NCBI GenBank assembly: GCA_038396605.1
Contig: CP121690.1
Span: forward strand, 1,024,500 to 1,088,499
Length of the DNA: 64,000 bases
From: Eubacteriales bacterium mix99
GTDB lineage: Bacteria; Bacillota; Clostridia; Caldicoprobacterales; DTU083
Direction: 5' to 3'
Of the stretch, positions 56,543 to 61,763 are shown in pieces (position 1 is the stretch's first letter; every line of letters begins with the position of its first letter). The position numbers and the translations under genes were made by a program. A model generated the notes under the pieces. The model saw nothing but the letters and a program-made list of their open reading frames with translations, made no database searches and was not told the origin of the DNA.

Positions 56543-57649
56543 TCACGCTTTTTCCTTAAACGAGCTGTTGTCCCCGCAGTGCCGGGTCCGCAGACGGATA
56601 TCCTGACCGGCAAAACGGAATATCATGGTGTTCTGGGTGTCAAACAGCCGGGAGGTTACCCGGTCCGAATAAAAATCCCTCAGGTCCGACAAGGACAGAT
56701 TGGTGGACAGGAAGGTATGCTGTTTCTGCAGATACCGTTCATTCAGGATATTGAACAGTTCCTCAGCGGTGAAATTATTACGCCGGGTCTCCGTGCCCAG
56801 ATCATCAATGATCAGAACATCCACGCTGAAGATACGGTCCTTCAGGAGAAGGGCTCCTTCCTCCGAATTTTGCAGGGAACTGCGGAATAAATTCTCAAAC
56901 AGATTGAAGGAGGTCAGCTTCAGGACGGTATAACCCTTCTCCAATATGGATTTTGCCAGGCAATTCAACAGGAATGTTTTTCCCAGTCCGGTCTTTCCGG
57001 TAAACAGAATATTCTTTTTCGGATTGTCCGGATAGGCGGTCTGATAGTCCCAGAGTACATTTTTCAGGTGCTCCATATATTCCCTTTGATTCAGCTTGCT
57101 GCCTTCCATCGGTGCTTTCGGAAAGACGCCGGCATCAAAGGTTCCGAAGTTTTCCTGCTCTGTTTCGGAGAGTTCGGCAAAGCGATAGGAACGCTCTGCC
57201 AGCTTCTGAATCAGGCAGCTGCACTTTTTTTTCACCAGATCCCCCACATAACCGGTATCCCTGCACCTGGGGCATCGGAAATGGGTATCGAGATAATCCC
57301 TGGGATATCCGTGCTCTGCAAGAAGTGCGGCTTCCTTTTCCTTTGTCTGACGGCTCCATTCCGATTCCATGTCCGGACTGGATTCTGTGCCTTGATCCGG
57401 TTTTGCATTCCTGTCTGAATCGGCTGGCCCGCTGACCGATCCTTTTGCAGTGCTATGAGAGATGGGATCGGACTGCCGAACCAGGGTCCGGGCTTTTTTC
57501 GCCATGGAAGACACAAGAGAACGGCGCAGCCGGGCAAGCTCGGGTATGCTGCGAAGGACTTCCGCTTCCCGCTCTTTCTGCGCCTGCTGCTCTTCCAGCC
57601 GATAGGCATCATATTCTCTCAGTATTTCTTTCAGCAATTCATCTTTCAT
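56543..57649 (-). CDS. DnaC/DnaI-like helicase loader ATPase
   Basis: A 368-residue AAA+ protein. The N-terminal third has a helix-rich part and a zinc-type motif CPRCRDTGYVGDLVKKKCSC (about 120-140). The ATPase part has Walker A GKTGLGKTFLLN (about 220), Walker B VLIIDDLGTE and the C-terminal LSTNLSLSDLRDFYSDRVTSRL. It probably loads the DnaB helicase encoded at 42616. It is the downstream gene of a pair with dnaD, separated by 20 bases. Confidence 0.92.
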   Translation of the reverse strand: MKDELLKEILREYDAYRLEEQQAQKEREAEVLRSIPELARLRRSLVSSMAKKARTLVRQSDPISHSTAKGSVSGPADSDRNAKPDQGTESSPDMESEWSRQTKEKEAALLAEHGYPRDYLDTHFRCPRCRDTGYVGDLVKKKCSCLIQKLAERSYRFAELSETEQENFGTFDAGVFPKAPMEGSKLNQREYMEHLKNVLWDYQTAYPDNPKKNILFTGKTGLGKTFLLNCLAKSILEKGYTVLKLTSFNLFENLFRSSLQNSEEGALLLKDRIFSVDVLIIDDLGTETRRNNFTAEELFNILNERYLQKQHTFLSTNLSLSDLRDFYSDRVTSRLFDTQNTMIFRFAGQDIRLRTRHCGDNSSFKEKA

Positions 57650-57669: not shown

Positions 57670-59292
57670 TTATTTTTCGATATTTTCAAACAGGTTGTCC
57701 AGATCCTCTTCTGTATAGCTGTGTTGTGGGAATTTATTGAAGTCAAGCTGTTTTTTCAGTCCGTTTCCTTTCTTTCCCGTGTTTTGCTTCATGAGTTCCA
57801 GCTCCTTTTTGTGCTGCTCATGATCTTCTTTTCCTGCCCGGATCGTGCGGATGCCTTTTCCATGCCAGCTTTCAAGGATCTTATTCAAAAAGCGGATCTT
57901 GTCCTTTGCCAGGCTGGAGTACTCCGCTGCCAGCAGTATGACTTCAAAGGGCATATTCCAGGCTTCCGTCCATTGCCGATAAAGCTTCCGTTCGGAACCG
58001 GAAATATTTGCTGCGTTGTCTCCCGTACGTTCCAGGATTGCCCGGATCTCATTGTCCGTTGCCTGTCTCCTGGACAGGAAGTCCTTTACTTCCGGTACCG
58101 TGGTCAGACCGTTTTTGGCCCATTGTTTCAACATGCCGTCCAGATACTCAAAGGAATTTGCATTCTTTCGGACGCATTGCCTGCAGGCCTGGAGAATGAC
58201 GTCGTGGCCCAAATTATAGTCGTGGGTCCAGCTGCGGTACATGGCCAGATGCTCCGGAGTTGGTTTGCTGCCCTTATAACCCAGTTGCTGATACACTTCC
58301 TTGAGCCGGGAGGCATCGCTTTCCTGGGTATCCATATGCATTTTGACTTCCTGTGGGGTGGTAACATCCTTTTTGTGCATATTCTCCAGGATCTTGTCCA
58401 GATAGCCAAAGTTGGGGGACTGCACCTTGGTGGTTTCCTTGCAGGCCAGCAGAATGGAAGCCAGACTGAACCCCCAGCCGCGCCATTTTTTATACAGCTC
58501 CAACTCCGCCTTGGAGGGAGAACGGTGAATTCCCAGGTATTTCAGAACCGCTACCGAATCCTTGAAGCAGGTATCGTTGGATTGAATGTATTCCTCTGCC
58601 TTCTGCAATGTATTGATACCGTCCCTGGCCCAGGTTTCCGCTACCTTGTCCAGATAATTGATCCGGATTTTCTTTCCCATACGGGATATGTAAAACTGTA
58701 CCATCATCAGGACGACTTCCATAGGCAGGTTCAGTATTTCGATCCAGTCATAGATCCTCAGGTACTCCTGCGGAGTCAGCAGACGGTTGCCGAATACCTG
58801 CTGCATGTTTTGATTGAAGTCCTTGTATTTGTACATTGTCTTTTCGGAACTCAGGCCCTGATTGTACAGGACATCCTTGATATTGTAAAATTCAATGCAA
58901 AGCTGTCCGTCCTTGTCCTTGCGGTAGGTCAGGATTCCCTGTCGCTCCCAGTATTGAAAGGCATTTTCTATAGTCCCGTTGTCGATTTCCAGGGCACGTG
59001 AAAAAGAATCCAGGGAGTTTTCCGTCGTATTGGGGTTATAACACTGCATCAGTCCATACAGATAGACTTTTACAAAGTCTCCGGGTGCCTTCAGCATGAA
59101 TTCATTGATAAATAGATTTTCCACAGGGGTAATATCAAACATCTGAAAGTTTTCCGAAAATTTACATAACGGCATTGCCACATCATCCTTTGTATAAAAG
59201 CCGTAAATAAAAGCAGTATCAAGCGGTATATGGAACCTCAAAATATTGGCAGCGCCTGTTGGATGTAGTCCAGCGGCGAACCCATTTATCAT
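57670..59292 (-). CDS. DnaD-family replication protein with four tandem C-terminal repeats
   Basis: A 540-residue protein. The N-terminal winged-helix domain (about 45-150; FDITPVENLFINEFMLKAPGDFVKVYLYGLMQC) is the DnaD DDBH1 domain. Four copies of the DnaD C-terminal domain follow, near residues 163-236, 248-315, 332-405 and 416-487, each with a conserved 'Y..W......' and 'YLDKI...W...GI.T' core. The protein ends with SYTEEDLDNLFENIEK, the DnaD YxxxxLDxLF tail. Bacillus DnaD has one such domain and DnaB two. Start is uncertain: ATG 59292 gives 540 residues, ATG 59175 (before MPLCKF, AAAGGA upstream) gives 501. Confidence 0.85.
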   Translation of the reverse strand: MINGFAAGLHPTGAANILRFHIPLDTAFIYGFYTKDDVAMPLCKFSENFQMFDITPVENLFINEFMLKAPGDFVKVYLYGLMQCYNPNTTENSLDSFSRALEIDNGTIENAFQYWERQGILTYRKDKDGQLCIEFYNIKDVLYNQGLSSEKTMYKYKDFNQNMQQVFGNRLLTPQEYLRIYDWIEILNLPMEVVLMMVQFYISRMGKKIRINYLDKVAETWARDGINTLQKAEEYIQSNDTCFKDSVAVLKYLGIHRSPSKAELELYKKWRGWGFSLASILLACKETTKVQSPNFGYLDKILENMHKKDVTTPQEVKMHMDTQESDASRLKEVYQQLGYKGSKPTPEHLAMYRSWTHDYNLGHDVILQACRQCVRKNANSFEYLDGMLKQWAKNGLTTVPEVKDFLSRRQATDNEIRAILERTGDNAANISGSERKLYRQWTEAWNMPFEVILLAAEYSSLAKDKIRFLNKILESWHGKGIRTIRAGKEDHEQHKKELELMKQNTGKKGNGLKKQLDFNKFPQHSYTEEDLDNLFENIEK

Positions 59293-59440: not shown

Positions 59441-59656
59441 ATGGCAGCACAGGCCACACAGATCACGAAGAATATGTCAATCGCTGAAGCCCTGAACATA
59501 GACCGCAGTACTGCTCCTATATTCATGCAGTTCGGGATGTATTGTCTGGGATGCCCGGCCGCTATGGGTGAGAGCATTGAAGATGCAGCCGCCGTTCATG
59601 GCATTGATGTGGATGCATTGATAAAAGCACTGAACGAGTATTTGGCAGACAAATAG
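59441..59656 (+). CDS. DUF1858 hybrid-cluster-associated redox disulfide protein
   Basis: A 71-residue protein with ITKNMSIAEALNIDRSTAPIFMQFGMYCLGCPAAMGESIEDAAAVHGIDVDALIKALN. The C35-x2-C38 pair and the surrounding residues define DUF1858, a likely redox or metal-binding module. GGGAGG lies seven bases upstream of the ATG. The gene starts 150 bases from the divergent dnaD and ends before a terminator. Confidence 0.93.
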   Translation: MAAQATQITKNMSIAEALNIDRSTAPIFMQFGMYCLGCPAAMGESIEDAAAVHGIDVDALIKALNEYLADK

Positions 59657-59675
59657 GTTTGACCTGCTTTGATTC

Positions 59676-59710
59676 AAGGCTCTTCCTCCATCGGGGAAGA
59701 GCTTTTTTAC
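59676..59710 (+). terminator. Rho-independent terminator after the DUF1858 gene
   Basis: GCTCTTCC (679-686) pairs with GGAAGAGC (695-702) and is followed by TTTTTT. Confidence 0.88.
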
Positions 59711-59727
59711 GCATTTTTTCGATAACA

Positions 59728-59878
59728 TGTGGATAACCCGTCGAAAATGTGGATAACTCTGTGGATAAGTGAGAAGGAAGTGGAAAGCAAGGCGGATTAT
59801 CCAGCGGAATCTGCAGGAAAAGTTGTGGAAAACAGGAGCTGTGGATTTTGGAGAAAACCATAAAGGAAATGTGGATAA
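59728..59878 (-). promoter_or_regulatory. Cluster of DnaA boxes
   Basis: Four perfect boxes read TTATCCACA on the minus strand (TGTGGATAA on plus) at 59728-59736, 59748-59756, 59760-59768 and 59870-59878. Near-matches lie between (TGTGGATTT at about 59840, TTGTGGAAAA at about 59823, and TTATCCAG on the plus strand at about 59796). All four perfect boxes have the same orientation. The region is intergenic, between the DUF1858 terminator and a flavoprotein gene. Confidence 0.85.
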
Positions 59879-59902
59879 CAGATAAGGAGGATCATACGGA
59901 AC

Positions 59903-61306
59903 ATGACGAAACAGGAATATGATGTGGTAATCATCGGAGCCGGGCCTGCCGGCATCTTTACTGCCCTGGAACTGTCAGGGAGGGACCGGAACCGAAAGAT
60001 TCTTATTGTGGATAAAGGCAGGGAAATCCGCAAAAGGAACTGCCCGGCCAGAAAGACGGGCAAATGCGTTAACTGCCAGCCATGCGCCATTGTCAGCGGA
60101 TGGTCCGGAGCGGGAGCCTTCAGCGATGGAAAACTCAGTCTGAGCCCGGAAGTGGGTGGCCGGATCCTGGACTATATGGATCGGAAAGAAGCCGAAGACC
60201 TGATTCAGTATGCGGACAGCATTTATCTCCGATTCGGGGCCAGCAGTGTCATTCATGGCCTGAACACAACCCGTGTGGATGAAATCAAATACGAAGCGCA
60301 GAAATACAATATCCGTCTGATTCCCTGCGGTGTGCGACATCTTGGAACGGAAAAAGCCTTTGATGTACTGATGGGCATGTATGATTACCTAATCAGCGAA
60401 ACCCATACGGAATTCTGTGAGCTCACAACGGCTCAGGACATACTGGTGAAAGACGGTAAAGTGGAGGGCGTGGTTCTTCAGAAGAAAGGAGAGGCACCGC
60501 AGACCGTCCATTGTGAGCACCTGGTTCTGGCTCCGGGACGGGATGGTGCAGAATGGCTGGCCGATCAGGCTGGAAAAATCGGAATCCGCACGTTCAATAA
60601 CGAGGTGGACATCGGTGTCCGTGTGGAAGTCCCCAATGCCATTATGGACCACCTTACAAAGGATTTGTATGAGGCCAAGATGGTCTATTATTCCGATACG
60701 TTTGAGAATAAGGTCCGCACCTTCTGCATGAATCCGGGCGGTGTGGTTTCCGAAGAACATTATGACGGGAAAATTGCCGTGGTCAATGGACACAGCTATG
60801 CGGATCCGAAGCTGAAAACGGATAATACCAACTTTGCGATTCTTGTTTCCACACGGTTTACCGATCCGTTCCATCAGCCCATTGAGTACGGCAAATATAT
60901 TGCACAGCTGGGGAATATGCTGACCGGTGGAGGAATCATGGTACAGAGACTGGGAGATCTGATGATGGGAAGGCGGACCGATGCAAGCCGTCTGCGCAAA
61001 TCAATCACGATACCCACCCTTTCCAGTGCGGTACCGGGAGATCTGAGCTATGTGCTCCCCCAGCGTTATCTGACTTCCATTACGGAAACAATGAAGGCTT
61101 TTGACAAGCTGGCGCCTGGTTTGTACGGAAGGGACACCCTGCTGTATGGGGTGGAAGTCAAATTTTACAGCAGCAAGGTGGAAGTGAACCATCAATTTGA
61201 GACAGAGGTTCAGAATATGTATGCCATCGGGGACGGCGCGGGAGTGACCCGCGGACTGATGCAGGCATCGGTTACCGGAATTGTCGTTGCCCGCAATATG
61301 ATATAA
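59903..61306 (+). CDS. COG2509-type FAD-dependent dehydrogenase
   Basis: A 467-residue flavoprotein: YDVVIIGAGPAGIFTALELS (about 6-25) for FAD binding, then the COG2509 marks CPARKTGKCVNCQPCAIVSGWSGAGAFSDGKLSL (cysteine-rich region, about 47-80), GRDGAEWL and the C-terminal NMYAIGDGAGVTRGLMQASVTGIVVA. The cofactor is predicted; the substrate of the family is unknown. AAGGAGG lies ten bases before the ATG. The start lies 24 bases after the last DnaA box, so DnaA could also regulate it. Confidence 0.93.
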   Translation: MTKQEYDVVIIGAGPAGIFTALELSGRDRNRKILIVDKGREIRKRNCPARKTGKCVNCQPCAIVSGWSGAGAFSDGKLSLSPEVGGRILDYMDRKEAEDLIQYADSIYLRFGASSVIHGLNTTRVDEIKYEAQKYNIRLIPCGVRHLGTEKAFDVLMGMYDYLISETHTEFCELTTAQDILVKDGKVEGVVLQKKGEAPQTVHCEHLVLAPGRDGAEWLADQAGKIGIRTFNNEVDIGVRVEVPNAIMDHLTKDLYEAKMVYYSDTFENKVRTFCMNPGGVVSEEHYDGKIAVVNGHSYADPKLKTDNTNFAILVSTRFTDPFHQPIEYGKYIAQLGNMLTGGGIMVQRLGDLMMGRRTDASRLRKSITIPTLSSAVPGDLSYVLPQRYLTSITETMKAFDKLAPGLYGRDTLLYGVEVKFYSSKVEVNHQFETEVQNMYAIGDGAGVTRGLMQASVTGIVVARNMI

Positions 61307-61327: not shown

Positions 61328-61356
61328 TTGACATACGCAGAAGGCTGTTGTAGAAT
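61328..61356 (+). promoter_or_regulatory. Promoter of the tRNA operon
   Basis: TTGACA (61328-61333), 17-base spacer, TAGAAT (61351-61356), 34 bases before the first tRNA. Confidence 0.85.
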
Positions 61357-61390: not shown

Positions 61391-61466
61391 GACCCATTAG
61401 CTCAGTTGGCAGAGCACTTGACTTTTAATCAAGGTGTCCGGAGTTCGAATCTCCGATGGGTCACCA
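61391..61466 (+). tRNA. tRNA-Lys (TTT)
   Basis: Acceptor GACCCAT pairs with ATGGGTC; anticodon loop CTTTTAA gives anticodon TTT; T-loop TTCGAAT; CCA encoded. Confidence 0.97.
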
Positions 61467-61471
61467 TTTGG

Positions 61472-61546
61472 GACCCCTTGGTCAAGTGGTTAAGACATCG
61501 CCCTTTCACGGCGGTAACAGGAGTTCAAATCTCCTAGGGGTCACCA
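61472..61546 (+). tRNA. tRNA-Glu (TTC)
   Basis: Acceptor GACCCCT pairs with AGGGGTC; anticodon loop CTTTCAC gives anticodon TTC; T-loop TTCAAAT; CCA encoded. Five bases after tRNA-Lys. Confidence 0.96.
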
Positions 61547-61608
61547 TTTATAAAGTTTGGAAGGTCAGGGTTTGGAGACAGAACAGCTCTGGGTCCCGGC
61601 TTTCATTT

Positions 61609-61685
61609 GGCCCGGTAGTTCAGTTGGTTAGAATGCCAGCCTGTCACGCTGGAGGTCGTCGGTTCGAGCCCGTCCCGGGTCGCCA
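61609..61685 (+). tRNA. tRNA-Asp (GTC)
   Basis: Acceptor GGCCCGG pairs with CCGGGTC; anticodon loop CTGTCAC gives anticodon GTC; T-loop TTCGAGC; discriminator G and CCA encoded. Confidence 0.96.
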
Positions 61686-61687
61686 TT

Positions 61688-61763
61688 GCTGATGTAGCTC
61701 AATTGGCAGAGCAGCTGATTTGTAATCAGCAGGTTGACGGTTCAAGTCCGCCCATCAGCTCCA
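61688..61763 (+). tRNA. tRNA-Thr (TGT)
   Basis: Acceptor GCTGATG pairs with CATCAGC; anticodon loop TTTGTAA gives anticodon TGT; T-loop TTCAAGT; CCA encoded. Two bases after tRNA-Asp. Confidence 0.96.

Follow-up and report, generated by a model that had tools for sequence, protein, structure and literature searches.

Why should a dense group of DnaA boxes lie beside dnaD, and does it mark a replication origin displaced from dnaA or a site at which DnaA is controlled elsewhere on the chromosome? The means by which Gram-positive bacteria without the control factors of Escherichia coli limit DnaA are a matter of continuing debate, and knowledge of DnaA-box clusters outside oriC comes mainly from Bacillus. 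The window, i.e., the whole stretch of 64,000 nucleotides analysed here (genome positions 1024500–1088499), contains a group of boxes in which three sites have kept their order and spacing across the bacterial family, and because of this conservation the stretch is probably a DnaA control site rather than a second origin. The conservation of this triplet is what is new here.

The box cluster and its distance from the origin

Four perfect TTATCCACA boxes, all on the minus strand, were re-found together with near-matches within 151 bp of intergenic DNA, as the sequence-only reading of this DNA had described (Table 1). Its judgement that this is far more than chance held up: perfect boxes number 63 in the 3.13-Mb genome (one contig), against 7 for the reversed pattern, and at the genome's own box density ~3 × 10^-7 clusters of at least four boxes per 151 bp are expected per genome. 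With consensus boxes grouped in non-coding DNA beyond chance, the stretch belongs by its sequence among the DnaA-box clusters. Similar clusters all over the genome, which the same reading had named as a refuting outcome, were not observed in a genome-wide check, with a single further group of at least three perfect boxes (1007176–1007261). The fifth perfect box, inside the flavoprotein ORF, is probably incidental, and the degenerate spacer abutting box 2 may have a role in the cluster.

Table 1. Features of the cluster region (window coordinates), and the tsaD-side cluster of the same genome
Feature	Position	Strand	Remarks
DnaC/DnaI-like helicase-loader ATPase gene	56543–57649	-	PF01695, PF00308, NF005304
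dnaD-domain primosomal protein gene	57670–59175	-	501 aa from likely start; PF07261, TIGR01446
DUF1858/hybrid-cluster-associated redox disulfide domain gene	59441–59656	+	Constant left neighbour of triplet; PF08984, TIGR03980
Intrinsic terminator ending DUF1858 gene	59676–59708	+	Just before triplet; fold -19.4 kcal/mol, z -5.7; conserved in alignment
DnaA box 1, conserved triplet	59728–59736	-	Perfect; position kept in 8 family genomes
Degenerate box-like spacer	59739–59747	-	Abuts box 2 directly; TTTTCGACG here, TTTTCGACA in G002 (sequence and alignment)
DnaA box 2, triplet	59748–59756	-	Perfect; 20 bp from box 1
DnaA box 3, triplet	59760–59768	-	Perfect; 12 bp from box 2
Near-match box	59824–59832	-	TTTTCCACA, 1 mismatch
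Near-match box	59840–59848	-	AAATCCACA, 2 mismatches, read from sequence
Fourth perfect box	59870–59878	-	Genus-specific; unit multiplied into tandem row in sister species UBA4874
FAD-dependent oxidoreductase (flavoprotein) gene	59903–61306	+	Variable right neighbour; PF21688; absent here in several relatives (synteny)
Fifth perfect box	60007–60015	-	Within flavoprotein ORF, codes IVDK
Sigma-70-like promoter P2 of tRNA operon	61328–61356	+	TTGACA-17-TAGAAT
tRNA operon Lys(TTT)-Glu(TTC)-Asp(GTC)-Thr(TGT)	61391–61763	+	
tsaD-side cluster, source genome	L037:7808–7879 (2639.8 kb)		Survey loci L193–L252

In the local order, the helicase-loader ATPase gene and dnaD on the minus strand are followed on the plus strand by the DUF1858 gene, a terminator, the boxes, the flavoprotein gene, P2, and the tRNA genes. 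The terminator, absent from the list of a simple scanner, was recognized by its fold and the alignment, and the Rfam search of the intergenic stretch for structured RNA had its thresholds reached by tRNAs alone. The distance of 24 bp between the cluster and the flavoprotein gene (ATG at 59903) was given correctly before, whereas that to dnaD is ~0.55 kb, measured from the likely dnaD start at 59175, instead of the earlier 0.44 kb. Because the DUF1858 gene on the opposite strand (59441–59656) separates the two, the cluster is not the promoter region of dnaD; control of the dnaD promoter is excluded by this divergent gene and its intervening terminator, and the tie between cluster and dnaD is one of neighbourhood.

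The dnaA gene is located at ~1015.6–1016.9 kb in its usual setting, flanked by rpmH-rnpA-yidC-jag-like genes and, at its opposite end, by dnaN-recF-gyrB-gyrA (names other than dnaA were read from translations). The cumulative GC skew over 990–1088 kb has its minimum at 1012.5–1015 kb, at dnaA, and on sampled stretches the skew is mostly negative leftward and positive from 1084 to 2310 kb. The check suggested earlier, of locating dnaA and the skew switch, thus places both near 1015 kb, with the cluster at 1084.2 kb. DnaA-trios (TAGTAATAGTAGTAG adjoining AGCC and a box) occur between dnaA and dnaN and, as a second set, upstream of dnaA, and none was found in positions 59657–59902. The cluster has a G+C content of 43%; no AT-rich unwinding element was detected at it, the lowest 30-mer in 59657–59902 having 9 G+C as compared with 5–6 at dnaA. 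The cluster therefore lies outside the origin, showing neither a DnaA-trio, an unwinding element, nor a GC-skew switch, and is 67–69 kb to the right of oriC, or ~2% of the chromosome, as measured in one closed genome, the relatives being drafts.

Conservation of the triplet and its changing neighbours

The triplet, with starts 20 and 12 bp apart and one orientation, stands after the DUF1858 gene beside dnaD in 8 of the 13 family genomes, which represent seven genera. In a pattern search allowing up to three mismatches, each of the eight genomes was matched once, at the dnaD–DUF1858 locus alone, and the 17 genomes of sister families gave no match. In the alignment, the spacer sequence varies while the boxes and their spacing persist, a combination that points to cooperative assembly; the retention of box order and spacing across seven genera suggests selection as defined DnaA assemblies and not as loose sinks. 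Elsewhere in the family, G004 has boxes in a different arrangement, G008 has dnaD with no DUF1858 gene or boxes within 1.5 kb, the locus is interrupted by contig ends in G010 and G007, and G012 gave no dnaD match. Two f4 genomes contain a degenerate box pair 20 bp apart. The sole exact triplet match outside the family, in the class sample of 391 genomes, was in G039 (L188), with the same spacing, spacer-like sequence, and a different gene context; further matches outside the family were found in G203 and G192, each with two mismatches, and in G329, downstream of tsaD. The tandem row formed from the fourth-box unit in UBA4874 runs into an assembly gap (L083:4055–4265).

The right-hand side of the triplet is far less constant. 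The gene after the cluster encodes the flavoprotein in G000, G001, and G004 and a DUF1638 protein in G005, and no gene lies between the cluster and the tRNA operon in G002, G003, G006, and G011. The tRNA-Lys operon follows in all seven triplet members readable that far (read from the printed sequence in G005; the contig ends after the first tRNA, Lys, in G003 and G006 and after the third in G011), and the same operon comes after the flavoprotein gene in G000 and UBA4874. A tie of the cluster to the flavoprotein gene is excluded, as the cluster persists without the gene and flavoprotein orthologues occur elsewhere without the cluster. That the element stays while the right-hand gene varies speaks in favour of its having a function of its own. 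Where the flavoprotein gene is absent, each of the five readable genomes has a promoter-like sequence, P1 (TTGNNN-17-TANNNT), starting 4–6 bp after box 3, a placement found in 0.2% of cases in shuffled sequence; no P1-type promoter was found in the window's own genus, which has extra boxes instead.

Candidate functions of the cluster

The observed features, namely the boxes, their non-random clustering, their distance from oriC, and the conserved order, spacing, orientation, and neighbourhood, are best explained by an origin-proximal DnaA-box cluster of the Bacillus DBC kind that would lower free DnaA after initiation, a reading of the sequences that we consider reasonably probable. It coincides with the DnaA-titrating or regulatory cluster of the earlier interpretation, which is the part best supported by the near-uniqueness of the cluster, its position ~68 kb from oriC, and the family-conserved core geometry; the other part, a displaced origin, did not stand. 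The functional core would be the three co-oriented boxes with fixed 12 + 20 bp spacing, which extra boxes follow in the window's genus. The DnaA of the source organism is of the canonical type, and its DNA-binding domain closely resembles that of the solved DnaA 8btg (GGRDHTTVIHA), so that the boxes should be bound; they are strong and roughly on one helix face, and their fixed spacing would permit cooperative binding by several DnaA molecules. Since its distance from oriC is ~68 kb (2% of the chromosome), the site would be duplicated early after initiation, and the two copies of the cluster may then take up or remodel DnaA and so discourage re-initiation. In relatives where the triplet abuts a promoter, DnaA occupancy may tune transcription in the direction of the tRNA operon, or the reverse, a coupling that is perhaps part of the cluster's function. 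Given that the element is retained although the gene downstream of it differs between genomes, selection most likely acts on the binding of DnaA by the element itself, as with the clusters of B. subtilis, where the joint removal of six causes early initiation (PMC5295017, PMC13220808).

Against this explanation, the promoter situated 4–6 bp from box 3 in five relatives exceeds the needs of a pure titration site. It is conceivable, albeit unlikely on the sequences compared, that DnaA acts here as a local transcription factor, the triplet being an operator for P1, from which the flavoprotein gene, the DUF1638 gene, or the tRNA operon would be read; P1 would be activated by DnaA sitting upstream of the -35 element, or read-through would be blocked by bound DnaA. 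The close and non-random placement of P1 speaks for such a role, as does the precedent of B. subtilis DnaA, which is an activator of sda and seems also to repress ywlC, vpr, and others (PMC4447404). However, P1 was not found in the window's own genus, in spite of its perfect triplet, the gene that follows the cluster varies, and the tRNA operon already has a strong promoter of its own, P2. A bolder and still somewhat less likely proposal is a DnaA-dependent switch that would couple transcription of the tRNA operon (or of the preceding gene) to the replication cycle through the fixed-geometry triplet, convergent with the E. coli datA–glyVXY hub, and forming one node of a cluster set whose tsaD node spans the phylum.

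It is decidedly improbable that the cluster is a datA-like site promoting DnaA-ATP hydrolysis under the governance of neighbouring tRNA transcription. E. coli datA has few essential boxes and adjoins the glyVXY tRNA operon, whose read-through controls datA (PMC10950094), but there the operon reads into datA, whereas the tRNA operon here is transcribed away from the cluster, with no tRNA promoter reading through the site, and the likeness may be a coincidence. Marginally less credible again is an absence of function, with chance boxes amplified by local tandem duplication: the fourth-box unit in UBA4874 does belong to such a row, yet the triplet is older than the row, and its spacing was kept across seven genera while the surroundings diverged. 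To a part or relict of an origin displaced from dnaA we give almost no credence, for in spite of the dense boxes beside primosome genes, the skew minimum, the DnaA-trios, and the AT-rich DUE candidates are all at dnaA, and this suggestion of the sequence-only reading is contradicted by GC skew, trios, and AT content.

Other clusters and comparison with known systems

In a sample of 30 genomes across the phylum, one per family, 19 were found to have at least three boxes within 400 bp downstream of tsaD (gcp), against a background of 0.16 boxes per 400 bp; upstream of tsaD, no box cluster was found in the same 30 genomes. The tsaD-side boxes are co-oriented, with spacings of 9, 12, and 21 bp dominating, and among the genomes tested the cluster is present in almost every one of f1, f2, and f4 and absent from f3. 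No paper describing its breadth across the phylum was found in the literature consulted, mostly outside subscription journals. B. subtilis DnaA binds the corresponding place downstream of tsaD (gcp). Family f3 has neither the tsaD cluster nor the dnaD-side triplet (L203–L207, L220), which suggests a joint loss of such clusters.

Several further groups of boxes were observed. A second dense cluster at 1007.2 kb (L034:160–284), ~10 kb to the left of dnaA and between gyrA with its GAF-domain neighbour and the murG side, has four perfect boxes in both orientations beside a very AT-rich stretch; a resembling layout is present beside murG in G002, G006, and G008. Another cluster, at 1788.1 kb (L036:8066–8126), lies between genes of unknown function near a transporter gene, at a place conserved in several family members (L125, L127, L132, L135, L152). 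Perfect box pairs 23 bp apart are located near a phosphoglucomutase-like gene (L123, L124, L126, L136, L138) and adjoin a spo0A-like gene in some genomes.

With the cluster located upstream of a tRNA operon, a link between growth and initiation becomes open to testing, and the phylum-wide tsaD-side cluster is a candidate control site that can be studied in tractable laboratory strains. When compared with known systems, the cluster may be likened to the promoters that DnaA regulates in B. subtilis (sda and others) in that its boxes closely precede a sigma-70-like promoter in five relatives, and differs from them in that the promoter is missing in the window's genus and the driven gene changes between genomes. 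Like E. coli datA, it is a box cluster outside oriC beside a tRNA operon, with a possible coupling of tRNA transcription to initiation; the operon, however, points away from the cluster, and because the lineages differ, the likeness would be convergent. Whereas the B. subtilis DBCs have neither its dnaD–DUF1858/tRNA operon neighbourhood nor a lineage-fixed 12 + 20 triplet, and the present cluster is known from sequence, it resembles them in having several near-consensus boxes in intergenic DNA outside oriC, in occurring as one of few per genome, and in being, as some of them are, proximal to oriC.
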